Shown here one piece after another: positions 19,395-36,232 of a stretch of DNA of 64,000 nt. Origin of the DNA: Brooklawnia cerclae (GTDB lineage Bacteria; Actinomycetota; Actinomycetes; Propionibacteriales; Propionibacteriaceae); the NCBI RefSeq assembly GCF_011758645.1, contig NZ_JAAMOZ010000001.1, positions 62,001 to 126,000 of the forward strand, read 5' to 3'. Each line of letters begins with the position of its first letter. Within the stretch, counting starts at the first letter, position 1. The notes beneath the pieces are model-generated. The model searched no databases, was not told where the DNA came from, and worked only from the letters and a program-made list of their open reading frames with translations. Both the position numbers and the translations under genes were made by a program.

Positions 19395-19872
19395 CCCGCT
19401 CCTCCTTCCGGAGTGCTTTCAGGCTCAGGTTGTCTGTGGACGTCCTCCGCCCCCGGATCGATCGTCCTCCATTCATTCCAGATTCTGCCACCTGACCCCG
19501 GCGTCTCGAGAGGCCAGGCGTGTAGCATCGGGGGCACCATGGGTCGACGACGACCGATGAGTGCCCTCACGGGCTCCCGGTTCTCGCCGATTCCCCATTC
19601 TTTCGGGTGGTCTTTGTCGACGCTCGGCAGGCGCCTGGCTATCTGGTCGCCGCTGGACACGCGCCGGTCACTGGGGTCCGTCATCCTTTGTTCAATTACA
19701 TGTCTCCTTGTGTCTGCCGAGTTGTGGAACCGGTGGCGGTTGTAGTCCGTCAAGACCGGGTGTGAGCATGATCGCGTCGTGCAGTACCCGAGAGCGCGTC
19801 TCCCGGGGCCCGCGTACTGCGGTCGTCCCGGTCGCGTGCAGTCGATCTGGAATCCGGAGGCTATGTGCGCCC
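19395..19872. other. Divergent intergenic region, kinase versus pstC
   Basis: 478 bp without a confident gene. A 68-codon plus-strand frame from ATG 19539 (MGRRRPMSALTG..., with a hydrophobic stretch SVILCSITCLLVS) has GGGGG just upstream but no family. GGAGG at 19856-19860 is 12 bases before the pstC start. No clear PHO box (GTTCACC direct repeats) was found by eye. It presumably holds the promoters of both operons. Confidence 0.4.
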
Positions 19873-21000
19873 ATGCTGACTCCTGAAGGGCCGAACCCCG
19901 CCGACGATGGGGAGGCTCCGACCTCTCCGGCTTCGGCGCGCGATGCCGCGCTGGACCAACTCGATCGGGAACGGAGATCCATGCGCGAGTTGGGGCTGGA
20001 CCCCTCGCCCGCGCCTCGTGCGGCACGGGTCGACCCGAGCCGGGCGATCGCGAGCAGCGCCGGTATAGGCGATCGAATATTCAAGGTCACCGCGCACGGC
20101 GGCGGGGTACTGGTGCTGCTGATCATGTCGTTGGTCGGCCTGTTCCTGCTGTGGCGAGGTTTCCGTGCGATCGATGTCGCTGGCTGGTCGTTCCTCACCA
20201 CTCAGGATTGGGAGCCCAACAGCGGTCACTTCGGTGTCGCGGCGGTGTTGTTCGGGACGATCACGATCGCGCTGATCGCGATCCTCGTCGCCCTTCCGCT
20301 CGCATTGGGCGTCGCCACCTACATCTCGGAATACGCCCCCGAGGGTATGAAGCGCTTGTTCACCAACATCATCGATCTGATGGCGGCCATTCCTTCGGTT
20401 GTCTACGGCCTATGGGGGATGTTCTGGCTCGAGAACAGGCTGCTGCCGGTGGCGCAGTGGATAAGTACCTGGTTCGGCTGGATTCCCATCTTCTCGGTGA
20501 CCGCGTTCGATCCGGACAACCCGTTGGCCACCCCGACGGTGTTCACCGCGTCGGCCACGCTGGCAGGCCTGGTGGTGGCCATGATGGTCGCCCCGATCGC
20601 TGCCTCGATCATGCGTGAGGTGTTCGCGCAGGCTCCCACGGGCGAGCGGGAGGGCGCGCTGGCGCTGGGGTCGACGAAGTGGGGAATGATCACCTCGGTG
20701 GTGTACCCGTTCGGTGTCGGCGGCATCATCGGCGGGACGATGCTCGGCCTGGGCCGAGCGCTGGGCGAGACGATCGCCGTCTATCTGGTGATCAGCCCGA
20801 TCTTCGTCATCAACCCACATCTGCTGTCGACGGGCACGAACAGCATTTCCTCGTTGATCGCGCTGCGCTACGGCGAGGCGAGCGACTTCGAGCTGTCGGG
20901 CCTGATGGCCGCGGGTCTGGTCCTGTTCCTGATCACGATGGCCGTGAACTTCGTAGCCGGCTTCATCGTCAACCGATCCCGTTCCGGGGCATCGAGCTAG
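19873..21000 (+). CDS. pstC: Phosphate-type ABC transporter permease PstC
   Basis: 375-residue inner-membrane permease. A roughly 70-residue polar N-terminal tail precedes six or more membrane segments. PstC hallmarks are GVATYISEYAPEGMKRLFTNIIDLMAAIPSVVYGLWGMFW and the coupling loop GEREGALALGSTKWGMI. The ATG at 19873 is used because upstream in-frame codons lack start codons near the domain. It is followed after 13 bases by pstA with an AGGAGG site. The tail of acidic and Ser residues (ERRSMRELGLDPSPAP) is longer than usual for PstC. Confidence 0.88.
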   Translation: MLTPEGPNPADDGEAPTSPASARDAALDQLDRERRSMRELGLDPSPAPRAARVDPSRAIASSAGIGDRIFKVTAHGGGVLVLLIMSLVGLFLLWRGFRAIDVAGWSFLTTQDWEPNSGHFGVAAVLFGTITIALIAILVALPLALGVATYISEYAPEGMKRLFTNIIDLMAAIPSVVYGLWGMFWLENRLLPVAQWISTWFGWIPIFSVTAFDPDNPLATPTVFTASATLAGLVVAMMVAPIAASIMREVFAQAPTGEREGALALGSTKWGMITSVVYPFGVGGIIGGTMLGLGRALGETIAVYLVISPIFVINPHLLSTGTNSISSLIALRYGEASDFELSGLMAAGLVLFLITMAVNFVAGFIVNRSRSGASS

Positions 21001-21013
21001 GAGGAAGATCGCG

Positions 21014-22267
21014 ATGGCGATCTCTGTGGTGAATCCGCCTGTTGTGCGCACGCATGTGCCGGGTCGGGAGAAGGGGCCGGATGGCTCCATGCAGACCGCC
21101 CAGCGGGGGATAGAGCAGCGGCGCAATCTGGGGAAGATACGTCGCGAGGACGTGTTCCGGCTGGTCGGTGCCGTGGCGGGGGCGATCGGCATGACGAGTT
21201 GGCTGTTCACTCAGGTGACCCCGTTCCACGGCGGGTTGCCGTTCGTGCTGATCGCCTATGTGCTGTTTCTGGGGATGTTCGTCGTGCTGATCAGCTTCGA
21301 CGACGACCGGGTGACGATCAAGGACCGTGTGATGGCGGTGATCATCCACTCGGCGGCTGTGGTGCTCCTGTTGGCCTTGGTGGTCGTGGTGGTGTTCACG
21401 CTGGGCCGGGGCTCGGAGGCTTTCCTGCACTGGAACTTCTGGGTGCAGGACCTGGCATTAGCAGGCCCGCTCGATCCGTTGACCGTGGGCGGCATGGCGC
21501 ACGCGGCGCTGGGCACCCTGTACATGATCTCGATCTCGCTGGCGATCTCGATTCCGCTGGCGCTGCTGACGGCCGTGTGCATGTCGGAGTTCCCGTCGCC
21601 GTTCACCCGGATGGTGCGGACGGTGACCGAGGCGATGACGGCCCTGCCCTCGATCGTGTGCGGCCTGTTCATCTATGCCACGTACATCCTGCTGCTCGGC
21701 TTCGACAAGTCGGGGTTCGCCGCGAGTCTGGCGGTGACGATCATGATCCTGCCGATCATCACTCGTTCGGCCGATGTGGTGTTGCGCCTGGTGCCGCAGA
21801 CCCTGAAGGAGGCCGCCCTGGCCACCGGCGCCAGCCGTTGGCGAACCGTGTGGCATGTGGTGCTCCCCACCTCCCGGTCTGGCCTGATGACCGCGATCGT
21901 GTTGGGGACCGCCCGTGGTATCGGCGAGACCAGCCCGGTGCTCTTGACTGCCGGTTACACGACGTTCTTCAACCTCAACCCGTTCAGCGGCCCCATGGTG
22001 TCGCTGCCGTTCGCCACGTTCACCTTGGTGAAGAGCCCCGAGCCCACTCAGATCGCTCGTGGTTTCGGTGCCGCGGCGGTGCTCATGGTGCTCGTTTTCC
22101 TGCTGTTCATGATCGGACGCATCATCGGCGGCAACGGCGCAGGGGTTTTGACGCCCCGTCAGCTCGCTCGCACGCGACACGCCAGCCGTCGCGACCTGGC
22201 ACGGCTCGAAGGACGCTTCGGCGCGCCCTCATCGGCTCGCCAGGGGGCGGAGGTCAATCGTGTATGA
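21014..22267 (+). CDS. pstA: Phosphate-type ABC transporter permease PstA with extra N-terminal membrane segments
   Basis: 417 residues, well above the usual 280-300 for PstA. The core permease (from about residue 160) has ISIPLALLTAVCMSEF, VTEAMTALPSIVCGLF and the coupling loop LKEAALATGASRWRTVWHVVLP. Before it are three additional hydrophobic segments (about 45-65, 75-92, 112-130) and a basic 40-residue N-terminus. The C-terminal 50 residues are a charged tail. The extra segments may form a docking platform for the exported partners encoded downstream, which is inference. It overlaps the next small gene by eight bases. Confidence 0.87.
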   Translation: MAISVVNPPVVRTHVPGREKGPDGSMQTAQRGIEQRRNLGKIRREDVFRLVGAVAGAIGMTSWLFTQVTPFHGGLPFVLIAYVLFLGMFVVLISFDDDRVTIKDRVMAVIIHSAAVVLLLALVVVVVFTLGRGSEAFLHWNFWVQDLALAGPLDPLTVGGMAHAALGTLYMISISLAISIPLALLTAVCMSEFPSPFTRMVRTVTEAMTALPSIVCGLFIYATYILLLGFDKSGFAASLAVTIMILPIITRSADVVLRLVPQTLKEAALATGASRWRTVWHVVLPTSRSGLMTAIVLGTARGIGETSPVLLTAGYTTFFNLNPFSGPMVSLPFATFTLVKSPEPTQIARGFGAAAVLMVLVFLLFMIGRIIGGNGAGVLTPRQLARTRHASRRDLARLEGRFGAPSSARQGAEVNRV

Positions 22268-22607
22268 GGTTCAAAACGCCGATGTGGCTAGGAGAAACTC
22301 TTTGTTCACCCATTGGTTGCCATTGAAGGGCTGTGAATTTTCCTTGTCTGTCCCTAGCGTCAGTTATGCAAGTTTGCTGGATCTGAATCGCGTGAACGAC
22401 AACCCCCAAGCATTCGACACGTCGAGCGGTACACCCCCCGAAGACCACCAGTACAACGATGAGCAAGACCGGGTCTCTGTGACGAGCCGGTCGAAGGGAG
22501 CCGATCCCGAGAAGTCGGCATATTACGACGACAAGCTCGCCGAAATTCTTGACGAGAGATTCGCCCCCGCTGTCGCTGATGACTCCCCCCAGGAGAACAA
22601 ACGATGA
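22260..22607 (+). CDS. Small acidic hypothetical protein in the Pst surface cluster
   Basis: 115 residues from GTG 22260, with GGAGG six bases upstream. It overlaps the pstA stop and ends in an ATGA overlap with the next gene, so it sits inside a tightly coupled operon. The second half is very polar and acidic (PPEDHQYNDEQDRVSV, SAYYDDKLAEILDERFAP). No signal peptide or family is seen. The DNA is lower in GC than its neighbours. A later GTG at 22393 is an alternative start. It is possibly a cytoplasmic accessory of the transporter. Confidence 0.5.
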   Translation: MYEVQNADVARRNSLFTHWLPLKGCEFSLSVPSVSYASLLDLNRVNDNPQAFDTSSGTPPEDHQYNDEQDRVSVTSRSKGADPEKSAYYDDKLAEILDERFAPAVADDSPQENKR

Positions 22608-24442
22608 TCGTCATCGCCCGTCTTCTTCACGTCGGTTCGCGCCGCGCTGCCCGCGTGGGCCTGCGCCGCACCCTTGTGATGCTGCTCAGCCTGGCGATGG
22701 TCGTGGCGGGAATGTTCGGGGGCGGATCGCAAGCCATGGCTGAGGGTGCGTTCCACTCGCCGATCACCGGTTCCGGGTCCACCTGGTCGGCCAACGCTTT
22801 GCAGGCGTGGATCCGCAATGTGTGGGCGAACTACCAGTGGAAAATCACCTACAGCGAGTCGGGTTCGACGCAAGGCCGCAACGACTTCGCGAACGGCACC
22901 GCCGACTTCGGTGTCTCCGAGATTCCCTACGCCATCTCGAACTCCAACGAGGGCGATTCCCGCCCGGCCCGCGGCTTCGCCTACATGCCGATCGTGGCCG
23001 GCGGCACGAGCTTCATGTACAACCTTCAGATCGGTGGCAAGCAGGTGACCAACCTGAGGCTGTCGGGCGAGACGATCGCGAAGATCTTCACCGGGGTGAT
23101 CACGGTGTGGAACGATCCGGCGATCCAGGCGGACAACCCGCAGCTGGCCCTGCCGGCCACTCCGATCGTGCCGGTGGTGCGCTCCGACGGCTCGGGAACC
23201 AGTGCCCAGTTCACGCTGTGGATGCGCCAGGAGCAGACCTCGCTGTGGAACGACTACTGCAACAAGGTGGGCCGCCCGCTCATCAACGGGGCGTGCGGCG
23301 TCACCTCGAACTACCCAGTGGTGGCGGGCAGCGGGTTCGTCTCGCGGGCGGGCGCCAACGGTGTGGCGGGATATGTGGCTCAGTCGCATGCAGTGGGCTC
23401 GATCACCTTCGTGGAGTACTCGTACGCCCTGAACTCGAAGTTCCCGGTGGTGAAAATGCTGAACAATGCCGGCTACTACGTCGAGCCGACGGCCGCCAAC
23501 GTGGCGGTGGCGTTGTTGCAAGCCCATATCAACGAGGACGAGTCGAGCCCCGACTACCTCACCCAGGACCTGCACGACGTGTATGGCGACACGGATGCGC
23601 GCACCTACCCCCTGTCGAGCTATTCGTACATCATCCTGCCCACAACGCTGGGCTACAACTTCACCGAGGAGAAGGGCCTGACGCTCGCGGACTTCGGAGC
23701 CTACTTCTTGTGCGAAGGCCAGCAACAGGCCGAGTCGCTGGGCTACAGCCCCCTGCCGATCAACCTGGTGCAGGGCGGTCAGAAGCAGATCCAGAAGATC
23801 AAGGGCGGAAACCCCACCATCAAGGGCATCGGCGACTGCAACAACCCGACATTCACCACCGACGGCACGAACCGGCTCGCCAACGAGGCGCCGTACCCCG
23901 CCGACTGCGACAAGCAGGGTCCCATCCAGTGCTCCAAGGGCACCGGCGGCGCCAAGGACACCGAGACCGACACGACCCGGGATACCGACACCAGCAGTGG
24001 TGGTGACGGCGGCGACAGGACGGGCGGGAATGGCACCAACGGGAATGGCACCAACGGCGACAACACGTCGGACAACCCGGACGCGGCCACTGATGCCGTC
24101 AGCGACGGGTCGACCGGCAGTGGCTTGAACAACCAGAACGGCGCGGCCGCCGTGGTGGCCGGGAGCCCGCAGTCCGTCCCTGTCGCCTGGACGAATCCCT
24201 TCCTGGTGCTGGCCATGATCGCGGTCGGCGCGATGGGTGTGGGCTTGGCGGTGCTTCCGCCCCTGGTGGTCGCCCGGCGCCGCCGTGGTGCGCCGGCCGT
24301 TGACCTCTCGGTTGATCTCTCGGTCTTGCCACCACCTGCCCCGCCGGCCCCGCCCGCTTCTTCACCGGTTTCCAGTTCGACCGCGCCGGCTTCTCCCCGG
24401 AACGGTCAAGTCATCCCGTTCGCGAGGAGGTACCAGGCATGA
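22604..24442 (+). CDS. Membrane-anchored PstS-like phosphate-binding surface protein
   Basis: 612 residues. A signal peptide ends near AMA-EG at 46. A PstS-type domain (about 47-390) carries the ligand-loop motifs: ITGSGSTWSANALQAW, YSESGSTQGRNDFANGTADFGVSEIPY and RSDGSGTSAQFT, which in PstS bind the phosphate oxygens. A Gly/Asn/Thr/Asp linker of about 90 residues follows (GGNGTNGNGTNGDN). One membrane helix (about 535-557) and a basic then Pro-rich cytoplasmic tail complete it. Most PstS proteins are free or lipid-anchored, so C-terminal anchoring is unusual. It starts in a four-base overlap with the gene before. Confidence 0.8.
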   Translation: MIVIARLLHVGSRRAARVGLRRTLVMLLSLAMVVAGMFGGGSQAMAEGAFHSPITGSGSTWSANALQAWIRNVWANYQWKITYSESGSTQGRNDFANGTADFGVSEIPYAISNSNEGDSRPARGFAYMPIVAGGTSFMYNLQIGGKQVTNLRLSGETIAKIFTGVITVWNDPAIQADNPQLALPATPIVPVVRSDGSGTSAQFTLWMRQEQTSLWNDYCNKVGRPLINGACGVTSNYPVVAGSGFVSRAGANGVAGYVAQSHAVGSITFVEYSYALNSKFPVVKMLNNAGYYVEPTAANVAVALLQAHINEDESSPDYLTQDLHDVYGDTDARTYPLSSYSYIILPTTLGYNFTEEKGLTLADFGAYFLCEGQQQAESLGYSPLPINLVQGGQKQIQKIKGGNPTIKGIGDCNNPTFTTDGTNRLANEAPYPADCDKQGPIQCSKGTGGAKDTETDTTRDTDTSSGGDGGDRTGGNGTNGNGTNGDNTSDNPDAATDAVSDGSTGSGLNNQNGAAAVVAGSPQSVPVAWTNPFLVLAMIAVGAMGVGLAVLPPLVVARRRRGAPAVDLSVDLSVLPPPAPPAPPASSPVSSSTAPASPRNGQVIPFARRYQA

Positions 24443-27400
24443 GCCTCGTGTCGCGCATCCTGCGTGCCCGGTGGGCCGGGATCCTCCGTCCCTGGAACGC
24501 CCCCCACATGGGCCGGAATGGCGTTCTCCCATGCTCCGTGGGCGAGGGATTCACCTCGCTCCCGGTCGCTCTCGCCGCCCGGCGCGGCGAACAGACCAAT
24601 CCCCCAGGAGGCGCACCCCATGGAACGGCAGAAGGATCGACGGCGACGCGAGCGCGAGCAGCAGAAGAGGCGTCAGCAGAAGCTCTTGCGCAGGAAACAC
24701 AGGGATCAAGGCCCGAAGAAGGGTTCCGCGCAGGCCAAGGAGATCGCGCTGGCCAAACGACAGGCGAAGCTCATGAGGGTCGAGGAACAGACCTCTCTTC
24801 CCTCTCTTCCGGCTCGTCTTCTGCCGTCGCTCGGGAGTTTCCGTTTGCCGGAGTTGCGCGGCCGAAACGCCTTCGGCCCCGCGCCGGAGCGCTGATCGCG
24901 GCCCTGGCACTGGTCGCTGCGTTCGGGAGTACCGGCCTCTCACCGGTGATGGCCAGCGCCGACGAGACGGACTCGGGCTCGTCGCTGACGGTGAAGTGGC
25001 TGAACGACGATTCGACCGCCGCCAGCCTGCAGCCGGAGCGCGAGACGACGTGGCTGAGCGAGGAAAAGGGACTGTCGCGGAACCCGCACTACGACGACTT
25101 CAAGAACCTGCAGGTCACGGTCAGCCAGACCGAGGACCTGACCGACCAGACGATCACCATCGACGTGACGGGCATGCCGGGAGGCAGCGTATCCGGACAC
25201 TCGGGCATGCCGGGGATCAGCTCGTCCACCGGCTACCCGTCGTACGTGCAGAACTACCTGCAGGTGATGCAGTGCTGGGGCGACCCGACGGACGACGATT
25301 TCGAGGAGACCTGCCAGTGGGGCGGGCTTGTGTTGGGCAGTAGTAGTTCGCAGGCGCTCGTCGCCCAGACGGTGGTGTACACCGATGGGGGCGCTCGCGA
25401 CGGGTCTGTCCCGTTCCGCACGGTGCAAGACAAGGAGTACTGGTCAAACGAGTACCTCGCCCCCGACGGTGCCTCGCTGTTGGGCAATCTGCTCAGCCCC
25501 TCGACGACCAACGACGTGCTGGCCTGGCCGGTGAAGGCCGACGGCACGACGGCGGTGCACTTCGCTCTGCAGAGCAGCACCTCGGCGCCGTGGCTGGGCT
25601 GCGGCGCCGACGACGACGGGAGTCCGCGCTCCTGCTCGATCGTGATCGTGCCCCGAGGCACGATCTACGGTAAGTCGAGTTCGCACTACGGCGCCTCCTA
25701 CGGCCAAGCCGGGGCGCAGTGGGGCGGGCCGCTGGACACCGACGCGGACTACTGGGACAACCGGATCGTGATCCCGCTCGACTTCCAGTCCCCAACCACC
25801 GCCTGCGACGCTGCCGGCACGACGCACACCGTCGGCGGCTCGCAGCTGATGATCCAGGCGATGCAATCGTGGCAGCGCGGCATTTGCACCGACGAGGGCC
25901 AGGGCTACAGCTACAGCACCGCCTCCGACTCACGGGCCCGCAGCAACCTGCTACAGGGCATCTACGATTTCGGCCTCACCTCGCGCGCGATCAAACGCGA
26001 AGAGCTGGACGAGACGGACTACGACGCCTACGACAACGCCGAGGTGGCCTATGCCCCGCTGGCGATCTCCGGTATCACGATCGGCTTCAACATCATCGGC
26101 ACGAAAGGCGTGCAGAACGATATCAAGCTCACACCGCGGCTCCTCGCGAAGCTTTTGACGCAGTCATACACGTCCGCGGTGCCGTCCTACACGTCCAACT
26201 TCCACTACGAGCACCTGTCGTCCAAGAATCCGAGCACCCTTCTGAACGATCCCGAGTTCAAGGCGCTGAACCCCGATATCAGCGTTAGCCCGTATCCCTA
26301 CGGCCTGGCCGACATGATCATCATGGGCCCCTCGGGCTCCGACGGCATCCGCCTGCTGTGGCAGTACCTGCAGTCTGACGACAAGGCCCGGGCCTTCCTG
26401 GAGGGGAAGACCGACAACGTGCTGGCCGGTGACGAGGGAAACTCTGGCATGACGATCAACCCCTACTACCTGCCCAAGGGCGATCCGAACGCGAAGGTAC
26501 CGGAGACCGAAGAGGTGGTCACGACCGAAGGGGCACAGACGGTCAGCACCATCCAGCTGGTGACTGACGCGAGCGGCAACACGGTGTACCGCGAGGTCGG
26601 GCTCACCGACTCCGACGGTAACCCGCTGAACCTTGCCACAGGCGTAATCGATACTTTCCCGCAGGCCGACGAGACCGAAGTTCCGTGGAGGATCGTAACC
26701 GCGGGTGGGCTGGCGACCGCCGTGCGCTCGCGAACGGACACCACGGCCTACAACCCCTACGGCGAGACCTTCTCCGACGTCGCGAGCCGGGTGGCCAAGG
26801 CCGACACGAAGCGGGCGACGTGGGACCCCACCGCCATGAACAGCGCACAGGAGGCTGGCGTGTGGAAAACCAGCGACAGCGTGCAATTCCCGCCCAGGAT
26901 CGGGGTGCTGGGCACTACCGACACGGCCTCGGCCGAGAAGAACGCGCTAGCCACGGCGCAGCTGCAGCTGCCCAACCAAGAGGGCGTTTTCGTCTCGCCC
27001 ACCGAGGGCACGATGACCGCGGCGCTGTCGGCGCAGACCGCACAGGATGACACGTCGGGCACCATTTGGGCCGACTTCTCGAAGCTCTCCAGCGACTCCT
27101 ACCCGCTCACACTGGTGACCTACGGGGCGCTGGACCTGCCTGAGGTGAGCGCCGAGGACCGGGAGTCCTACGCCGACCTGATCGAGTTCGCGGTCACCAC
27201 GGGGCAGGCGTCCGGAACCCGCCCTGGCCAGCTGCCATGGGGCTACGCGCCACTGACCGATGAGCTGGTGGCTCAGGCCCTGGCCGCGGCCGAGCGCATC
27301 CGCAACTGGCTGCCCTCCACGGGTGATGGCGACACGGGTAGTGGCGGCACGACCTCGGATGGTGACCAGAGTTCCTCGACGGGCGACGGGTCGGCTGGCA

Positions 27401-27612
27401 CTCAGGCCACGAACCCTGCGACATCGGCGGACGACTCCACGCCGAGCTCCAACGCCTCGCAGTCGACCACCGAATACAGCCAGGCCGCCACTACCGAGCG
27501 CGGCTCGACCGCCGCGTTCATCGGCGCCGCCGCGCTCGGCGCCATGCTCCTGGTGGGCAGCGTCGGCGCGGCGGTGGCGCCCCTCCTCCTGCGGCGCAGG
27601 AGCGACAAATGA
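24439..27612 (+). CDS. Large membrane-anchored PstS-like surface protein (start uncertain)
   Basis: The frame runs 1057 codons from ATG 24439 (ATGA overlap with the preceding stop), but the export signal (RAGALIAALALVAAFGS) lies only at about residues 148-165, and no ATG, GTG or TTG occurs in frame near it. From 24620 to 24895 another frame is better coding sequence, so the N-terminus is unresolved. The ectodomain (about 175-1000) contains a PstS-like lobe (GVQNDIKLTPRLLAKLLTQ, VSPYPYGLADMIIMGPSGSDGIRLLWQYL). A Ser/Thr linker, a membrane helix (about 1026-1048) and the tail RRRSDK end it. It is the second anchored binding-type protein of the cluster. Confidence 0.65.
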   Translation: MSLVSRILRARWAGILRPWNAPHMGRNGVLPCSVGEGFTSLPVALAARRGEQTNPPGGAPHGTAEGSTATRARAAEEASAEALAQETQGSRPEEGFRAGQGDRAGQTTGEAHEGRGTDLSSLSSGSSSAVAREFPFAGVARPKRLRPRAGALIAALALVAAFGSTGLSPVMASADETDSGSSLTVKWLNDDSTAASLQPERETTWLSEEKGLSRNPHYDDFKNLQVTVSQTEDLTDQTITIDVTGMPGGSVSGHSGMPGISSSTGYPSYVQNYLQVMQCWGDPTDDDFEETCQWGGLVLGSSSSQALVAQTVVYTDGGARDGSVPFRTVQDKEYWSNEYLAPDGASLLGNLLSPSTTNDVLAWPVKADGTTAVHFALQSSTSAPWLGCGADDDGSPRSCSIVIVPRGTIYGKSSSHYGASYGQAGAQWGGPLDTDADYWDNRIVIPLDFQSPTTACDAAGTTHTVGGSQLMIQAMQSWQRGICTDEGQGYSYSTASDSRARSNLLQGIYDFGLTSRAIKREELDETDYDAYDNAEVAYAPLAISGITIGFNIIGTKGVQNDIKLTPRLLAKLLTQSYTSAVPSYTSNFHYEHLSSKNPSTLLNDPEFKALNPDISVSPYPYGLADMIIMGPSGSDGIRLLWQYLQSDDKARAFLEGKTDNVLAGDEGNSGMTINPYYLPKGDPNAKVPETEEVVTTEGAQTVSTIQLVTDASGNTVYREVGLTDSDGNPLNLATGVIDTFPQADETEVPWRIVTAGGLATAVRSRTDTTAYNPYGETFSDVASRVAKADTKRATWDPTAMNSAQEAGVWKTSDSVQFPPRIGVLGTTDTASAEKNALATAQLQLPNQEGVFVSPTEGTMTAALSAQTAQDDTSGTIWADFSKLSSDSYPLTLVTYGALDLPEVSAEDRESYADLIEFAVTTGQASGTRPGQLPWGYAPLTDELVAQALAAAERIRNWLPSTGDGDTGSGGTTSDGDQSSSTGDGSAGTQATNPATSADDSTPSSNASQSTTEYSQAATTERGSTAAFIGAAALGAMLLVGSVGAAVAPLLLRRRSDK
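24620..24895 (+). CDS. Small very basic protein overlapping the large surface-protein frame
   Basis: 91 residues in the +1 frame relative to the large frame. ATG 24620 has AGGAGG at 24606-24611 with good spacing, the strongest ribosome site in this stretch. Third positions are strongly G/C, unlike the competing frame here. The first half is a Lys/Arg/Gln-rich helix (MERQKDRRRREREQQKRR...). Its TGA (24893-24895) overlaps a CTG that is in the large frame, right at the signal peptide. Either this is a separate gene, or a frameshift joins it to the surface protein. Confidence 0.5.
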   Translation: MERQKDRRRREREQQKRRQQKLLRRKHRDQGPKKGSAQAKEIALAKRQAKLMRVEEQTSLPSLPARLLPSLGSFRLPELRGRNAFGPAPER

Positions 27613-27758: not shown

Positions 27759-29054
27759 ATGAAAACAATCAAAAGAGTCGTGATCGGTGCCCTCGCGGGC
27801 ATTCTCACGACCGGGCTCGCGCTGACTGGCTTCAGCAGCCAGGCCTCCGCCGATCCGGCCTCGACGAGCACCTATGGTCAGCTCGTTGCGGTCGGCAGCG
27901 ATACGCTGCAGGACTTCGGCAACGGCCTCAGCACCGCGCTCGGCAACGTCAGCGGCACCAGCACGCTCAAGCTGGCGTCCTACGACGCGACCGGCAGCTC
28001 CACGATCCAGACCCGTTCCGGTGGCGTGTCGTTCACCCGGCCGAACGGCTCGGGCGACGGTGTCAAGGCGCTGAGCGCCTCGGCACAGGGCACCATCTGG
28101 GGCGGCGCGAACCTCTCCGGTCAGGTTGACATCGCTCGCTCCTCGAGCAAGTACACGACCTCTACGGTAAGCGCGCTGGCCTACGTGCCGGTCGGTGTGG
28201 ACGCCGTCACCTACGCGACCTCGTCCGACTCGGCCATTCCGAGTGGGATCTTGGAAGGTGACGTCTCCCAGGATGGCGTTGGAACGTGGGATTCTGAGAC
28301 GGGGACGGTCCACCCTGCGGATCTGACTCTGCGGAACATCTTCCAGGGTAACGGCTATCTGGAGGGCACGATCAGCAGCGTCACCTACAAGTTCTACTCC
28401 GGCGCGGGCAACCCTGCTGACGGTTCGGGCTACACGAAGCTGAACGTCTACGTGCCACAGTCCGGCTCGGGCACCCGCTCGTTCTGGGCGAGCACCCTTG
28501 GCTTCAGCAACAGCAGTCTGCCGGCTGGAGTGAGTGACACATTCGGGCTGTACAACCCCGACACCGAGGTCACCACAACGACCGATGTGCAGGAGCACAA
28601 CGGGCTTGTGGTGACTAAGCCGGAGGCTGCGACGGAAACCGAGCAGGCCGAGCAGGGCAACCAGAACTGGGAGACGGCGATTGTGCCGTTCTCGATCGCG
28701 CAGTACGTCGCGCAGACCAACGCGGCAGAGGGCACCCTTTCCGGTGTGACTGATCGTCGTCACGGCGCAGAGTTGAACTCGGTCGGTAATGTAGCTCCGA
28801 CTAGCGGCGGGGCGCTGAACTCGAGCTTCCCGATCAAGCGGGACGTCTACTTCGTGGCCACCACCGCGCGTCTGACCAACCCGACCACGGATGCGGACAG
28901 GCTGCTGGCCAAGTTCTTGATCAACAGCGGCACTGCGGACATCCCGTGGATCGGCAGCACCGCGCTGCAGAGCACGATCACCAACTACGGCTTCGGCACT
29001 GGCACCGCTGACACGCTTGGTGCAATCGCAGGCTACAACTCCTACCAGTCCTGA
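27759..29054 (+). CDS. Secreted PstS-like substrate-binding protein
   Basis: 431 residues. A signal peptide (MKTIKRVVIGALAGILTTGLALTG...) is cut near SQASA-DP at 32. The mature protein begins GQLVAVGSDTLQDFGNGL and later has VPQSGSGTRSFW, corresponding to the PstS oxyanion loops, and ends FGTGTADTLGAIAGYNSYQS. It has no C-terminal membrane helix, lipobox or sorting signal, so unlike its two partners it is released or held by protein contacts, perhaps through the WxL/DUF916 pair. AGAGGA lies 11 bases before the ATG. A strong terminator follows. Confidence 0.75.
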   Translation: MKTIKRVVIGALAGILTTGLALTGFSSQASADPASTSTYGQLVAVGSDTLQDFGNGLSTALGNVSGTSTLKLASYDATGSSTIQTRSGGVSFTRPNGSGDGVKALSASAQGTIWGGANLSGQVDIARSSSKYTTSTVSALAYVPVGVDAVTYATSSDSAIPSGILEGDVSQDGVGTWDSETGTVHPADLTLRNIFQGNGYLEGTISSVTYKFYSGAGNPADGSGYTKLNVYVPQSGSGTRSFWASTLGFSNSSLPAGVSDTFGLYNPDTEVTTTTDVQEHNGLVVTKPEAATETEQAEQGNQNWETAIVPFSIAQYVAQTNAAEGTLSGVTDRRHGAELNSVGNVAPTSGGALNSSFPIKRDVYFVATTARLTNPTTDADRLLAKFLINSGTADIPWIGSTALQSTITNYGFGTGTADTLGAIAGYNSYQS

Positions 29055-29135: not shown

Positions 29136-29281
29136 CCGGGATCGTCATCTACGGCCCGGATATTGAACCCAGAAGCGCTTCGGACCAGAAGTGTAGAGCC
29201 GGTCGTTAAGCAGCAAGGTCCCGGGGGCGGAGACGTCGTTCCCCAGGGCCGTTGCCAGCAGACCGAGAAAGGTACTTAGTG

Positions 29282-30625
29282 ATGACTATCAACCGATCCC
29301 AGGCCTCTCGTCGGTTGCGGGCCTGTTTCGTGGCGGCCGCCGTCGGTGCCCTTGCGGCTACAATGTTCAACACTGTTTCTGCCCACGCCGCTATAGGTGA
29401 CTCCACCGACTCCAACTACCTTGGGGAGTTGACGGTCACCCCGACGAGCGGCAACTCGACCGACACCCCGCCGTTCACGCAGCTCTCAGCCCAGCGGGCC
29501 GACGGTACCGGCTGTCCTGATGGCTACAGGACGTGGTCGCGTGTGGTCTTGTTGAATCCGGCGACCGGCTCGTTCAACAGCATCGCAACCATCCGTTCCA
29601 CTACCGGAAACACGACCGGCTTGAACGGCAGCGCGATCGTGCTGACCGGAAATTATGCGGCCACCACATCACGGGCTCTAAACGACAGGGCCGCGTGGAC
29701 TGAGGTCAGCGTAGGGGCGTCGGCAAAGGTTCTTCTGACATGTGAGGCCACCTACGATCCGAACACTGGCGCGCTCACTCCGTTGGATAGTGCGCTGTAC
29801 TTCGCCGCTACCATCCAGAAGGACACCGACACCACATGGAAGATCGTGTCCGGCACCTCGACGGAGAAGACCCCGACCACCACGACGGTCGCGTCCTCGA
29901 ATGTGGCCCAGACCTCGGCCACGTTGACCGCCACAGTGTCCCCGGCTGAGGCCACCGGCACGGTGACGTTCACCAGCGGCAGCATTACCGCGACCGGAAC
30001 GGTGACCGATGGCGTGGCCACGGCGGATGTGCCGGGCCTGACTGCGGGCACCGAGTACACCTTCACCGCTGCCTACCCCGGTGATGATGCCTACGCGGCG
30101 TCGGACAACACGGTCACCTTCACCACTCTCGCCGCAGAGGAGCCCACTACACCGAGCGACAGCAATGACACCAACATCAAGGTGAACGTGCCCGAGGTCG
30201 GCGGCACCACCGTGGCCGGCGGCTTGACGATCTCCCTTGCGCCGGGTGTCAGCACCCTGACCGGTGGGGCTCGTTCCGAGGGCCAGGCATGGGAGGCCAC
30301 CGGCCAACTCGGCTCGGTGACCGTGAATGACGATCGCCGGGACGCGAGCGCCGATGCGTGGACGCTCAGTGGTACGGCTTCCGACTTCACCGGTGCGGGA
30401 ACGATCTCGGCGTCCGCGCTGAGCTGGACCCCGAGCAAGGAGTCCGGTGCGGGCGAAGCGGGCAGTGCGTCCAGCGACCTGTCGAAGTCCTCGCCGCTGG
30501 CCACCGGCGCCGCCTCGGCCGACACGAACGTGACGACCACGGTGAACGCTGGCCTCAAACTGGTCGTCCCGAGCGACAGCGCTGCGGGCAACTACTCCTC
30601 GAAGCTCACCCTGATCCTCATCTGA
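29282..30625 (+). CDS. WxL-domain surface protein with an Ig-like repeat
   Basis: 447 residues. The signal peptide ends near SAHA-AIG (about 36). After a 150-residue N-terminal region there is a bacterial Ig-like domain (TTTTVASSNVAQTSATLTAT..., YTFTAAYPGDDAYAASDNTVTF). The C-terminal about 150 residues look like a WxL domain: IKVNVPEVGG, SVTVNDDRRDASADAWTLSGTASDF, and the closing KLVVPSDSAAGNYSSKLTLILI. WxL domains bind peptidoglycan non-covalently and pair with DUF916 proteins, and such a gene is next. The ATG at 29282 has AGAAAGG nine bases upstream. Confidence 0.7.
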   Translation: MTINRSQASRRLRACFVAAAVGALAATMFNTVSAHAAIGDSTDSNYLGELTVTPTSGNSTDTPPFTQLSAQRADGTGCPDGYRTWSRVVLLNPATGSFNSIATIRSTTGNTTGLNGSAIVLTGNYAATTSRALNDRAAWTEVSVGASAKVLLTCEATYDPNTGALTPLDSALYFAATIQKDTDTTWKIVSGTSTEKTPTTTTVASSNVAQTSATLTATVSPAEATGTVTFTSGSITATGTVTDGVATADVPGLTAGTEYTFTAAYPGDDAYAASDNTVTFTTLAAEEPTTPSDSNDTNIKVNVPEVGGTTVAGGLTISLAPGVSTLTGGARSEGQAWEATGQLGSVTVNDDRRDASADAWTLSGTASDFTGAGTISASALSWTPSKESGAGEAGSASSDLSKSSPLATGAASADTNVTTTVNAGLKLVVPSDSAAGNYSSKLTLILI

Positions 30626-30803
30626 TCCCGGCTTGAGCGATGATGTTCGGGTGCTCTCGTCGTCCGGTTCATGCCGGGCGACGGGAGCATTCGCGCGGTG
30701 CCGCCCCGTCTTCGATGCCCGTCGGCTTTCCGACCTTGTGTCCGCTGTTTCCCATGCCTGTCTCTGCTCACGTTTTCAGCCACTGGCCGTTGGAGTGCTC
30801 CCG

Positions 30804-32021
30804 ATGATCTCTCGCCGTCCTGTCCTTCTTTCTCCCGAGCCTTCTTCGGCCCCGGATTCTGTTTTTTCCCTCGTTCCGCTCACTACCCGAACTCCGAATA
30901 GTTCTACGACGGGTCGTCTTTCCGCCCATGGGCTAATCCACCGTCTCGGTGTGCTCAGCGTCGTACTGCTCGTCGTGGCCTCGTTCGCGGGTGTGGGCGG
31001 TGGAAGCCAAGCGTTTGCCGACGCGGCAGACGTCACCTTCGGTGTACAGCCATCGACGGCGACCGGCCCCGACGGGCGCGAGCGGTTCGACTTCAATGTG
31101 GCGCCCAGTACGGTGATCAGCGACTGGGTGGCCGTGACCAATTCGTCGACGAGCGAGATAACCGTTCGGCTGGTGGGTGAGGACGCCACCACCGACTACG
31201 GTTCCGGTGAGTTCACCTTGGTGGGCACAGACGTGCCCTCCACCGATATAGGGGCATGGACGTCGGTGAACGGCGAAGCGTCCACCTGCCCCGACATCAC
31301 CGCCGATCAAGCGCAGGCATGTCTGCCGACATTGGGTGCCGCTGTGAGGCTGCAGCCCGGCGAACAAGCCAACGTGCCATTCACGTTGACCGTGCCGGCC
31401 GACGCGACCCCGGGCGACCACGCGGGCGGGATCGCGGCGATCTACACGACGACGCAACCGGGGTCGGACGGAATCAGCACGCCGGTGGAGGTGCATGTGG
31501 GCACCCGGGTGTACTTGCGGGTGGACGGCCCGGTGAGTCCAGGCATGACGATGAGCGGCCTGGTGTCGGGCTACGACGGCGGCTGGAATCCGTTCGACGG
31601 CACGGCGCGGGTGAGCTTCGATCTGGCGAATGCGGGCAACTCGCGGGTGTCCGCGGCCACGAGTGTTGTCGTGAAGGGGCCGTTCGGCCTAGGACGGCAT
31701 GAGTGGCAACTGGCCGACACGAAGAATCTGATGCCGGGGAAGACGGCGCACATCACCGCGGACCTAGAAGGCGTGCCGGCGTGGTTGCTGCTGTTCGCCG
31801 ACGTGACGGTGACTCCGTTGGCGGCCGACGGGACGGCGGCTTCCGATCCCCTGCCGGATGCTGTGACGGCTTCGACGATGACGTGGGCTGTGCCATGGAC
31901 GATCCTCGGAGCGATCGTGGTGGTGGCGGGTGTGGTGCTGCTGGTGCGTTGGCGACGTCGTGAGCGGCGTCTGCTGGACGAAGCCCTCGCCGCCGCTCAG
32001 ACGCAGCAGCCGGCGAACTGA
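30804..32021 (+). CDS. DUF916-type (WxL-interacting) membrane-anchored protein
   Basis: 405 residues from ATG 30804, with GGAG eight bases upstream. A longer in-frame extension has no signal. The signal helix is GVLSVVLLVVASFAGVGGGSQAFA-DA (about 49-75). The DUF916 domain follows (VTFGVQPSTATGPDGRERFDFNVAPSTVISDWVAVTN and TPGDHAGGIAAIYT). A second beta domain leads to one membrane helix (AVPWTILGAIVVVAGVVLLV) and a basic tail. In Firmicutes, DUF916 proteins hold WxL proteins at the wall. Here it directly follows a WxL protein. Confidence 0.78.
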   Translation: MISRRPVLLSPEPSSAPDSVFSLVPLTTRTPNSSTTGRLSAHGLIHRLGVLSVVLLVVASFAGVGGGSQAFADAADVTFGVQPSTATGPDGRERFDFNVAPSTVISDWVAVTNSSTSEITVRLVGEDATTDYGSGEFTLVGTDVPSTDIGAWTSVNGEASTCPDITADQAQACLPTLGAAVRLQPGEQANVPFTLTVPADATPGDHAGGIAAIYTTTQPGSDGISTPVEVHVGTRVYLRVDGPVSPGMTMSGLVSGYDGGWNPFDGTARVSFDLANAGNSRVSAATSVVVKGPFGLGRHEWQLADTKNLMPGKTAHITADLEGVPAWLLLFADVTVTPLAADGTAASDPLPDAVTASTMTWAVPWTILGAIVVVAGVVLLVRWRRRERRLLDEALAAAQTQQPAN

Positions 32022-32121
32022 GGGGAGCGGTTTTCCACAGGCCGAGTTCTTTTGACCATCGGCGCGGTACGTCACCAATAGTCATGGTGTCGTCGCGCCG
32101 GTGTGCGGCAGAATGGAGGCC

Positions 32122-32535
32122 ATGATCGTGACGGTCGAGGTGTGGAGTGCCATCCTCACGGGCCTTGGCGTGCTCGTCGCGGTGCTAGTCGGTATGTGGG
32201 GCATGTTCACTTGGTCGCACAAGCAGATAAAGACCGATATGGACGCTGGTTTCGCCCGTGTCGATGAGCGTTTCGTCCGTGTCGATGAGCGGTTCGAGCA
32301 GGTCAATCGACGGCTTGAGCAGGTTGACCGACGGTTCGAGCAAGTCGATCAGCGCTTCGACAGGATGGATCAGCGTTTCGAGAAGATGGAACAGCGTTTC
32401 GAGAAAATGGATCAGCGTTTCGAGAAGATAGATGGGCGGCTGGCCGGGATCGACAACAGGCTCGGGGAGCTGGGTGAACGTATCGCCCGTCTTGAGGGCC
32501 CCGAGCCGCGGTTGTACGTACCCGCCCGTCGTTAG
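32122..32535 (+). CDS. Membrane-anchored heptad-repeat coiled-coil protein
   Basis: 137 residues from ATG 32122. GTG 32128 has a better-spaced GGAGG, and ATG 32113 is also possible. The N-terminal helix (VWSAILTGLGVLVAVLVGMWGMFTW) is a membrane anchor. It is followed by about eleven near-perfect seven-residue units of the type (V/M)D(E/Q)RFE(Q/K), a parallel coiled coil, then a short tail. At DNA level the units form a 21-bp tandem repeat that could change number by slippage. A palindrome follows the gene. Its role is unknown, perhaps a spacer or trimerising stalk. Confidence 0.7.
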   Translation: MIVTVEVWSAILTGLGVLVAVLVGMWGMFTWSHKQIKTDMDAGFARVDERFVRVDERFEQVNRRLEQVDRRFEQVDQRFDRMDQRFEKMEQRFEKMDQRFEKIDGRLAGIDNRLGELGERIARLEGPEPRLYVPARR

Positions 32536-32590: not shown

Positions 32591-33090
32591 GAACACCCCT
32601 TCTTTTGGATGGTTTTCACCGGCTGCTCGGCGAGTTGACCTGCCCGGGATGCGGCCCGAATAGCGAGCTTTGTGGTCAGCCCCTCAAACCTGAAGGGTAA
32701 GGCGGCTTGTCAGACTTCGTTGCGACGTGCAACGAAGTCGAAGAGCAGGCTTGTCACTTGCTGTTCATGTTCAGGTTCCCTGTTGTGTGCCCAATTGGCA
32801 TGCCACAACGGTTTGTACCTCGTAGCGGGCGATGTGAGCATGGGTGAGACGCCGAATCTCCAAGGCTCGGCGTGGTGCGCCAACCCCGGGTCGCGCTGTC
32901 GATCAGGAGCATGCAGTCCACGGCGCATTGGAGGACCTGTGTTGACGATTCATGCCCGTCCTCGCCTCGGCCCTGGGCCGGGTGCGTTAGCGACATTCCG
33001 TGTTCCGGTGTCCCCTTTTCCGGGGCAGCACATGCTTGCCCCCAAATCTGCCACCGCGGCAACCGTGCCAGAGAGAAAGAAGAAAGCACA
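32591..33090 (+). other. 500-base structured gap upstream of the anchored surface protein
   Basis: No gene is supported. Hairpins are seen: GACTTCGTTGC-gacgt-GCAACGAAGTC (32713-32739, perfect 11 bp), ACGCCGA and TCGGCGT (32849-32873), and CCCC-ttttcc-GGGG near 33012-33025. GGCTTGTCA occurs twice around the first hairpin. It may be a long structured 5' leader. Confidence 0.4.
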
Positions 33091-33957
33091 GTGAAGTCAG
33101 TCCGTAGCCGCACCCTCCGCGCCCGGTTTGTCGCCGGCTGGGCAGTCCTGCTGTGCGCAGCCCTGGTGGTGCCTGGTGCGGCCCGCGCACAGGCGGAAAC
33201 GAACGCCACCAACGACTCTGATATCAACGTCGTGGTGCCGGAGGCAACGCCGACCGCCACAACGCCGCCGCCGACCACGGCGCCACCGACTACAACGCCG
33301 CCTACTGCCGACGGGGACAACAACGGCGGCGGCAACAACGGAAATGGTGGCGGCGGTAGTGGCAACAACGGAAACGGCAACAACGCAGGCACCGGCGGTG
33401 GCGTCAGCGTCACGAGCACACCGTCGTCGTCCGCCAATACGACCAGTTGTGCGTCCACCGAGCCCTCGGTGCCGAGTTCCCCGGCCAAGGCCGGCAACGA
33501 AGCTAGCTTCGACAAGGACATCTACTACCAGGGAGACACCGTCAACGTGACGGCCAATCGGTTCACCGCCGGTGAGCAGGTGCAGTTGGTGGTGTTCTCA
33601 GACCCGACGCTGATCGGAACTTTCGCCGCGGACGAGACGGGCACCGTGCGCGCGACGTTCACGGTGTCCGACTCCATGACGACCGGAGCGCACACTCTGC
33701 AATTCACTGGTTGGTGCAAGACGGTGGCACTGGGCAGCGTGCTGATCGGCTCCACCGGGCAGGGGCAGGCGCACACCTGGCTGGCCTCTGTTCCTGTCGC
33801 GGTGTGGTGGATCCTCGGCGTGCTACTGGTGCTGGCGCTCGCCTACGGCGCGTGGCGCGTTTGGCGCGTCCTGTCCGAATCGGACTCCGACAGCGGTCGG
33901 CCGGCCGACGGACAGCAGATCAACGGGGCGACTACGAAACCGGGGGCGTCCGCGTGA
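33091..33957 (+). CDS. Membrane-anchored surface protein with Thr/Pro and Gly/Asn linkers
   Basis: 288 residues from GTG 33091. The signal peptide ends near ARA-QA (about 33). Then come NDSDINVVVPE, which echoes NDTNIKVNVPE of the WxL protein, a Thr/Pro stretch, a Gly/Asn stretch, and an Ig-like domain (about 125-215: DIYYQGDTVNVTANRFTAGEQVQLVVF). A membrane helix (WWILGVLLVLALAYGAW) and a polar cytoplasmic tail end it. There is no LPxTG signal. It overlaps the sortase-like gene by four bases, so the two products are probably made together. Confidence 0.72.
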   Translation: MKSVRSRTLRARFVAGWAVLLCAALVVPGAARAQAETNATNDSDINVVVPEATPTATTPPPTTAPPTTTPPTADGDNNGGGNNGNGGGGSGNNGNGNNAGTGGGVSVTSTPSSSANTTSCASTEPSVPSSPAKAGNEASFDKDIYYQGDTVNVTANRFTAGEQVQLVVFSDPTLIGTFAADETGTVRATFTVSDSMTTGAHTLQFTGWCKTVALGSVLIGSTGQGQAHTWLASVPVAVWWILGVLLVLALAYGAWRVWRVLSESDSDSGRPADGQQINGATTKPGASA

Positions 33958-35033
33958 GCAGTGGAACTGATCGTCCGACGCAAGGCCCTCAGCTGACGCC
34001 CGCTTCGTCGGGGAGCGGCACTCAGGTCACGTCCGCCGACGAAGGCTCGTCCCCTGGAGTGGGGAGCGCCCCCGGCGCGGGCACGACGCCGGCGACCGAG
34101 ACTCCCGCACGACCGATTCCAGCGAGGATTCAGCGGCGCGTCGAACGGCTGCGGGCGGCGTCGGCGAGGCCTCGTCAGCCTGTGGAGCGGAACGGGCGGT
34201 GGTGGTTCGGGGTCGTGGAACTGACGATCTCGCTGCTGTTGCTCGCCTTCGTGTTCCACGCCACGCTGTTCACCTCGTTTCAGTTCCGTGCCGCACAGAG
34301 CAACGCCTACGACCAACTGCGCACCGAACTGGCGAAGGCGGAGACGCCGACCGGCCCGCTGAACACCGATGAGAATTTGGTGGTGGCAGGTTCGCCGGTG
34401 GCTCTCCTGCAGGCGCCTTCGATCGGGCTGAGCGTGACCGTGCTCGAAGGGTCGTCCTCCGAGGTGCTGCGCAGCGGCGCGGGCCACCGACGCGACACGG
34501 TGATGCCGGGGCAACCCGGCACCACCGTGATACTGGGGCGCCAACTGACGTACGGCGGTCCGTTCGGCAGCCTGAAGGATCTGCAACCCGGTGACGAGAT
34601 CACCGTCACCACCGGGCAGGGGGTGAGCGTCTACCGGGTTTTCGGCCTGCGCCGCGCGGGCGATCCGCTCCCCGAAGCACTCCAATCCGGCCAGGGCCGG
34701 TTGGAACTCATGACCGCCGATGGGCTCGCACTGTTTCCCTCCGGTGTGCTGCACGTGGACGCCGAACTCATCACGAAGACCAACAAGGCGGCCGCTCAGG
34801 TGATCGCCTACTCAGCACTGCCGGCCGGCGAGAAAGCCATGGGGCAGGACCAGGGCGCCTGGTTCATCGCGTTCTTCTGGGGGGTCTTCTTCGTGCTCGC
34901 GGGCGTGACCGTGGCATGGCTGTGGAGGAATTGGGGCAAATGGCACGCATGGGTGGTCGGAATTCCTGTGTTGCTCGCCCTGGGCGTCACCACTGCGGAT
35001 GCCGTTATGAACGCATTGCCGAACCTTTTGTAA
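33954..35033 (+). CDS. Sortase-fold membrane protein lacking catalytic His and Cys (pseudosortase)
   Basis: 359 residues from GTG 33954 (GTGA overlap). A disordered 75-residue N-terminus is followed by a membrane helix ([18 protein letters not shown]) and an external sortase-like domain: [61 protein letters not shown]. At the catalytic His site (normally GH) it reads GR, and where TLxTC is expected it reads LELMTAD, with no Arg after it. So it keeps the fold but not the triad. Two C-terminal membrane helices follow. A binding or scaffold role is likely. Confidence 0.75.
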
Positions 35034-35080: not shown

Positions 35081-36202
35081 ATGAGCTTTGAAAACGAAAC
35101 CCCGGGAGGGGTCGCCCACGACCAAGCTGGGCGCGGGCAGTTCGCTTCGGGGCAGGCAGTGATCGGCCCTGACGACAAGACGCAAGTGCTGCCACCCGTC
35201 GTCCCCGGGACGACTCCCGCGGCTCCAGCAGGCTACGAGGTCTCGACATCGAGCGAAGTCGGAGCCGACGTGGCCGGATCTGCTCACGCCGAAGCCGCTC
35301 ACGGCGAGCGCGGCTACACGGAGCCCGTCTACGTCGAAACCACCGATGGCGAGACCACCCACGTTGGGGCTGCGGTCAGGTCGGCCGAGGAGGAACCTGT
35401 GGCGCCGGTTTCGGTGTCGGGTGGTGGTTTGTCGTTGTTGGAGGCGCGGGGGGTGTCGGCGTGGTTTGGGTCGCATCGGGTGTTGGAGGGGGTGTCGTTG
35501 GTGATGGGGGCGGGTGAGGTGACGGCGTTGATTGGTCCGTCGGGGTGTGGGAAGTCGACGTTTTTGCGGGTGTTGAACAGGATGCATGAGTTGGTGCCGT
35601 CGGCGTCGTTGGCTGGTGAGGTGTTGTTGGATGGTGGGGATGTGTATGGGCGGGGGTGGCGGTTGCAGGATGTTCGTCGGGATATTGGGATGGTGTTTCA
35701 GAAGCCGAATCCGTTTCCTGCGATGTCTATTTACGACAATGTGGTGTCGGGGTTGAGGTTGACGGGTCGGCGGGTGTCGCGGGATGTGAGGGATGAGATT
35801 GTGGTGCGGTCGTTGGTGAGTGCGGGGTTGTGGGGGGAGGTGCGGGATCGTTTGCGGCAGCCGGGGGGTGGGTTGTCGGGTGGTCAGCAGCAGCGGTTGT
35901 GTATTGCTCGGGCGTTGGCGGTGCGGCCGCGGGTGTTGTTGATGGATGAGCCGTGTTCGGCGTTGGATCCGACGTCGACGCGGGTGATTGAGGAGACGAT
36001 GGGGCAGTTGCGTCGTGAGGTGACGATTGTGATTGTGACGCATAATATGCAGCAGGCTGCTCGGGTGTCGCAGCGGTGTGCGTTTTTTTTGGCGTCGCAG
36101 GGGATGCCGGGTCAGATCGTGGAGTATGGGGATACTGATGCGATGTTTTCTGAGCCGCAGGATGAGCGCACCTTCGACTACGTCAACGGCCGCTTCGGAT
36201 AA
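35081..36202 (+). CDS. pstB: Phosphate-type ABC transporter ATPase PstB with N-terminal extension
   Basis: 373 residues. A 110-residue acidic, disordered N-terminus ([15 protein letters not shown]...) precedes a standard PstB domain: Walker [19 protein letters not shown], signature LSGGQQQR, Walker [20 protein letters not shown] and [10 protein letters not shown]. Ordinary PstB is about 255 residues. Between about 35396 and 36163 the third codon positions are nearly all G or T, while both ends of the gene use C-rich codons like the neighbours. This points to a recombined or foreign core. It closes the cluster that begins with pstC and pstA 13 kb upstream. No phoU is present. Confidence 0.85.
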
Positions 36203-36232
36203 ACCCGCACGATCCGCGCTGAATGACGTGTC

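Follow-up and report, generated by a model that had tools for sequence, protein, structure and literature searches.

A Sortase-Fold Protein without the Catalytic Triad Is Encoded in a Conserved Pst-Like Transporter Cluster of Actinomycetota

RESULTS AND DISCUSSION

The Pst-like gene cluster

We analyzed a window of 64,000 nucleotides (nts) of Brooklawnia cerclae DNA, the whole stretch introduced above. The genes discussed here are all on the + strand, in the order PstC, PstA, PBP612, BIG1057, PBP431, a Big/WxL-like protein, a DUF916 protein, p361, the pseudo-sortase that is our subject, and PstB.

19861..21000, +, PstC-like permease (TIGR02138, 250 bits; the ORF runs from 19561 and its start is uncertain)
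21014..22267, +, PstA-like permease (TIGR00974, 197 bits)
22604..24442, +, PBP612, PstS-like, with a C-terminal transmembrane (TM) anchor (PF12849, E 3.6e-37; TIGR00975, E 8.8e-60)
24439..27612, +, BIG1057, enlarged PstS-fold protein with a C-terminal TM anchor (TIGR00975, partial, 4e-9)
27759..29054, +, PBP431, secreted protein and the third PstS-like candidate (its family is conserved in the cluster; Pfam gave no match)
29252..30625, +, protein with a Big_3_5 domain and a WxL-like C terminus (PF16640, 8e-12)
30633..32021, +, DUF916/WxL-interacting protein, TM-anchored (PF06030, 31.8 bits versus a cut-off of 27.3)
32872..33957, +, p361, TM-anchored surface protein whose stop overlaps the pseudo-sortase start
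33954..35033, +, pseudo-sortase, 359 amino acids (aa), GTG start, TAA stop
35081..36202, +, PstB-like ATPase (TIGR00972, E 9.9e-99; 329.7 bits, just under the cut-off of 343)

The cluster has in common with the PstSCAB phosphate importer its PstC, PstA, PstB, and PstS-fold components, and these genes together make up the gene set of a Pst importer. It differs from PstSCAB in having three PstS-like proteins or candidates that are TM-anchored or enlarged, the pseudo-sortase, and WxL/DUF916 proteins, and in having no PhoU; PhoU (contig C3) and another PstS-type gene are encoded elsewhere in the genome. Judged from its sequence, the cluster would encode a second, surface-elaborated Pst-like importer, with phosphate as the putative substrate. 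In most homologues of PBP612, the DFxxSE motif has Glu at the position where PstS is expected to have its phosphate-contacting Asp. A Pfam search of the window copy of BIG1057 gave no match. The AlphaFold model of BIG1057 (pLDDT 80.6) had PstS proteins as all of its best Foldseek matches (E 4.5e-13, ∼490 columns). BIG1057 is uncharacterized; it carries an additional N-terminal region and has six invariant Cys residues. No WxL domain was matched by Pfam in the 457-aa Big_3_5 protein. An ORF inside the cluster at 32101-32535 encodes 144 aa with a coiled-coil-like repeat, RFEQVDRRFEQVDQRF, and is present in hardly any other cluster.

This genome contains another complete Pst-like cluster (G000:C1:427000-446500, L036), which has its own pseudo-sortase, 39 to 41% identical to the first. 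A stretch of 798 bp of the PstB gene (35413-36210) is 99.9% identical to the PstB of this paralogous cluster (L036:13589-14386, ∼340 kb away), and outside it the two clusters have diverged much further. Either gene conversion or copying in the very recent past would account for this identity.

The pseudo-sortase has a sortase fold and three TM helices

Sortases are the enzymes that attach proteins to the cell wall, and they have been investigated for their enzymatic activity and as targets for drugs. To our knowledge, annotation pipelines count every match to the Pfam family PF04203 as a sortase. The pseudo-sortase has such a match (E 5.4e-16, 58.9 bits versus a cut-off of 26.6), which covers only profile positions 1 to 83 of 125, leaving the Cys/Arg half outside. 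The GTG start of the gene overlaps the TGA stop of the upstream ORF (32872-33957) by 4 nts. An AlphaFold model of the protein (pLDDT 90.8, pTM 0.86) has one N-terminal TM helix, an extracellular sortase barrel, and two C-terminal TM helices. The parts of the protein, and the codons at the catalytic positions as aligned to intact relatives, are as follows.

34209..34334, +, N-terminal long helix including the first TM helix (residues 86 to 127, AlphaFold model)
34395..34769, +, sortase beta-barrel (about residues 148 to 272)
34539-34541, +, Arg196 codon, catalytic His position
34716-34718, +, Ala255 codon, catalytic Cys position ("LMTADG")
34746-34748, +, Val265 codon, catalytic Arg position
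34851..35015, +, two C-terminal TM helices (residues 300 to 327 and 329 to 354), followed by an LPNLL end

When this model was compared with the PDB by Foldseek, the top matches were sortases only, among them SrtD5 (4d70, E 2.3e-11) and SrtE (5go5, TM-score on the target 0.73, 30% identity). PF04203 was found in 62 of 62 family members at an E value of ≤0.001, with the window copy above the cut-off. The best NCBIfam model was class_E_sortase (NF033747), to which the pseudo-sortase scored 86.9 bits, below the curated cut-off of 160; the intact three-TM relatives described below scored 162 to 188 bits. By both fold and sequence profile the protein belongs to the sortase superfamily, as the preliminary description had supposed when it recognized a sortase framework.

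Three TM helices and an extracellular domain are also what might be expected of a membrane sensor, and PhoU is encoded away from the cluster. The protein could then be a regulator that signals the state of the importer, in the manner of PhoU or PhoR, and not a transport subunit. However, no cytoplasmic signaling domain was recognized in it, and its N-terminal tail is of low complexity and poorly conserved. We consider a regulatory role quite improbable.

The catalytic triad is lost throughout the family

The preliminary description read Arg for the catalytic His (GR instead of GH), LMTAD for the Cys motif, and no Arg following it. Alignment with homologues confirmed all three readings. When 73 degenerate proteins from Actinomycetota were aligned together with 34 intact class-E-like outgroup sortases, the His column had R in 68 and K in 5 of the degenerate proteins versus H in 34/34 intact sortases. 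The Cys column, C in every intact sortase (34/34), has A in 55 of the degenerate proteins, S in 12, G in 3, T in 2, and V in 1. Thus, His and Cys are missing from 73/73. The catalytic Arg column, in strand 8, is R in 34/34 intact sortases and V, A, I, T, or L in nearly all of the degenerate proteins, the Arg being retained in L244. A separate set of 64 members collected by profile, nearly all of one class, gave R in 59, K in 4, and one gap at the His column, and A in 46, S in 13, G in 3, T in 1, and V in 1 at the Cys column. The universality of these counts rests on the profile searches and not on a pattern-collected set, which was biased toward degenerate members by patterns containing "GR" or "GHRRDT." In a profile alignment with solved sortases, the GR of the family was also placed on the sortase GH.

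Class E sortases, such as SrtE1 of Streptomyces coelicolor, whose triad is His251, Cys320, and Arg329 (PMC5148588), and SrtE of S. avermitilis (5go5), have the same barrel and the same order of motifs. The pseudo-sortase differs in having Arg, Ala, and Val at the equivalents of the triad, two extra C-terminal TM helices, and a shorter interval between the His and Cys positions. Because this interval is ∼9 residues shorter in the family than in canonical sortases, the original peptide groove may no longer exist, and a partner then need not be a peptide tail.

We looked for substitute catalytic residues in the family alignments and found no other conserved His or Cys except His178 of a GxGH motif, which is the only conserved His in the family and is common to intact sortases too. 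An alternative triad was rejected, as no His, Cys, or Ser that could form one is conserved. The presence of Ser at the Cys position in 12/73 proteins, together with retention of the fold, might suggest an enzyme still active by a changed mechanism, with Ser or another residue as the nucleophile. This is very unlikely, however, because the same position is Ala in 55 and Gly in 3 of the 73, no His, Cys, or general base is conserved that would stand in for the triad, and the catalytic Arg is lost as well. That the protein is a pseudoenzyme, without the residues of the sortase reaction, is well supported.

Other residues have become nearly invariant in the degenerate family: Arg233, Gly236, Gly257, Pro262, and Asp269. 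Together with the always basic His position, these appear to mark a rebuilt site whose ligand could be a protein or an anion. Should it be an anion, the protein might be an accessory that senses the importer substrate or passes it on, the Arg or Lys that replaced His forming with other Arg residues a site for an oxyanion such as phosphate or a phosphorylated polymer. The basic residue at position 196 in 73/73 proteins is consistent with such a site, as are the Arg residues that are conserved or newly conserved (R233 in 69/73, R180 in 62/73, and R249 in 65/73) and the phosphate-binding-protein fold of the partners. But the Arg residues could equally well have other roles, such as a salt bridge to Asp269 or contact with a protein, and we regard anion handling as unlikely.

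The triad was lost once, and the family is under selection

A search across the phylum Actinomycetota showed that three-TM relatives with the complete triad occur in its other classes (L245-L252 and L264-L274). These have the same layout as the pseudo-sortase and a similar LLPxx end and differ from it in having the full triad. In a tree of 70 proteins, a branch (99/98.9) separated all 36 pst-linked degenerate proteins from the intact sortases, of which 20 have three TM helices and 14 have one. Intact homologues at the same alignment columns do not refute the loss, because they are an outgroup and because the eight examined in 17 to 20 kb (L245-L252) lie outside the Pst-like cluster; instead, they date it.

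L244, which branches deepest among the degenerate proteins, is encoded in a Pst-like cluster. Arg replaces its His and Ser its Cys, but the catalytic Arg is still present. Because this branch is already in the cluster without His and Cys, the family was inactivated as it was recruited: these two residues disappeared with entry into the cluster, and Arg was lost later. Each of three genomes (G526, G615, and G456) has a degenerate copy inside the Pst-like cluster together with an intact one at another site. The HMM that defined the family was seeded with pst-linked members, and its scores for intact and degenerate proteins come close to each other (151.6 for the intact L245, 176.9 for the degenerate L244, and down to 133 for degenerate fragments); therefore, the groups are defined by context and residues and not by score. 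The nearest relatives of the window protein (60 to 67%; L128-L145) include Bifidobacteriaceae MAGs, Microbacterium, Cryobacterium, and Promicromonospora.

Loss of the triad might also mark a decaying pseudogene. We rejected this reading, which is extremely improbable given the open frames across many families, the new near-invariant residues, and the dN/dS values of 0.07 to 0.37 between close pairs of pseudo-sortases; because of these values, we conclude that the gene is under purifying selection. The loss of the triad has a single, ancient origin and is not local decay.

The gene neighborhood is fixed

The pseudo-sortase was described at the outset as part of a surface transporter cluster, and the neighborhood is indeed fixed across the family. 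Among 105 family loci, each of at least 15 kb, BIG1057 was present in 102, PBP431 in 101, PBP612 in 99, and PstB in 98. The clusters often include WxL/DUF916 proteins as well. Every assigned immediate upstream gene and 95/96 downstream genes were on the same strand as the pseudo-sortase, and the cluster gene that comes next downstream was PstB at 73 loci and PBP431 at 23. In contrast, PstC, PstA, PBP612, BIG1057, and PBP431 were each found at 0 of 18 control loci of canonical sortases.

At the level of genomes, the pseudo-sortase and BIG1057 occurred together in 28, and each was found without the other in 2. Of the four exceptional genomes, three are 76 to 78% complete, and two genomes (G072 and G115) perhaps fell outside the sample of 200 genomes searched for BIG1057. 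No Pst-like permease, PBP612, or BIG1057 was present within 17 to 20 kb at the eight intact three-TM loci L245-L252; the other intact relatives were covered by flanks of ∼1.5 kb. One of the eight, L247, adjoins cytochrome c maturation genes. An ATPase near some intact three-TM sortases was scored as PstB but was rejected as such; it is CcmA-like, belonging to cytochrome c maturation and not to Pst. The gene neighborhood shows linkage, not a complex.

Sortase substrates

The surface proteins of the cluster are TM-anchored and do not need a sortase. A C-terminal TM anchor was found in 112/115 members of the PBP612 family and in 137/147 of the BIG1057 family, and only a minority of cluster proteins have pentapeptide-like matches before the TM helix. 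True LPxTG tails occur only in a few p361 homologues (Phytohabitans). The preliminary statement that the cluster has no LPxTG-type signal holds in that it has no sortase substrate, but it was not literally correct: BIG1057 (1,057 aa) contains LPSTG at aa 958 to 962. We rejected this as a sorting signal because it lies ∼70 residues before the C-terminal TM helix.

Proposed role of the pseudo-sortase

The protein probably binds or organizes an uptake machine rather than cutting, and a binding or scaffold module, as first suggested, would be the most economical reading. We propose that a class-E-derived, three-TM sortase fold joined a Pst-like ABC importer, losing its His-Cys-Arg triad in a single ancient event as it did so, and that it serves the importer today as a non-catalytic membrane subunit. 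The old active site would have been rebuilt around Arg196 with Arg233, Gly236, Gly257, Pro262, and Asp269, and the exposed barrel would hold the membrane-tethered PstS-like proteins and surface partners beside PstC/PstA. On balance, we favor the view that it is such a subunit, tethering or coupling the anchored PstS-like proteins to the permease; membership in the complex, the tethering, and the choice of bound partner are all to be read as proposals. A stronger version is rather doubtful: that the active site of a sortase became a basic binding site, turning a former anchoring enzyme into an extracellular subunit that an ABC importer cannot do without, and that an ancient conserved lineage thereby acquired a new molecular function.

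SipA of Streptococcus pyogenes (PMC4049620), a signal peptidase that is catalytically dead but required to assemble the pilus, is likewise a surface-peptidase fold that has been retained as a non-catalytic partner in surface assembly and serves for binding. The analogy is one of principle: SipA has another fold, is from another phylum, belongs to a pilus system instead of an importer, and has no homology to the pseudo-sortase. It is not a relative, but it shows that such reuse of a dead enzyme fold happens. We found no description of pseudosortases or of a link between sortases and Pst in open-license PMC papers. A phylum-wide lineage in which the triad was lost once and which is kept under selection indicates that the sortase fold has been put to a second, non-catalytic use. 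The lineage also draws attention to an uncharacterized, surface-elaborated Pst-like importer with enlarged PstS.

Other degenerate or broken sortases

A second, independent degenerate sortase occurs in the genus of the window (G000:C3:122751 [L002:721-1917]; L030, L031, and L032). It has Tyr for His (AGYR) and Ser for Cys (TSQDLLP) and keeps Arg. In the window genome it adjoins an ORF resembling orotate phosphoribosyltransferase, and in other genera of the family its relatives retain both His and Cys. In another genome (G536), a three-TM sortase gene with an intact triad (L254:11632-12624) is interrupted by an in-frame TAG.
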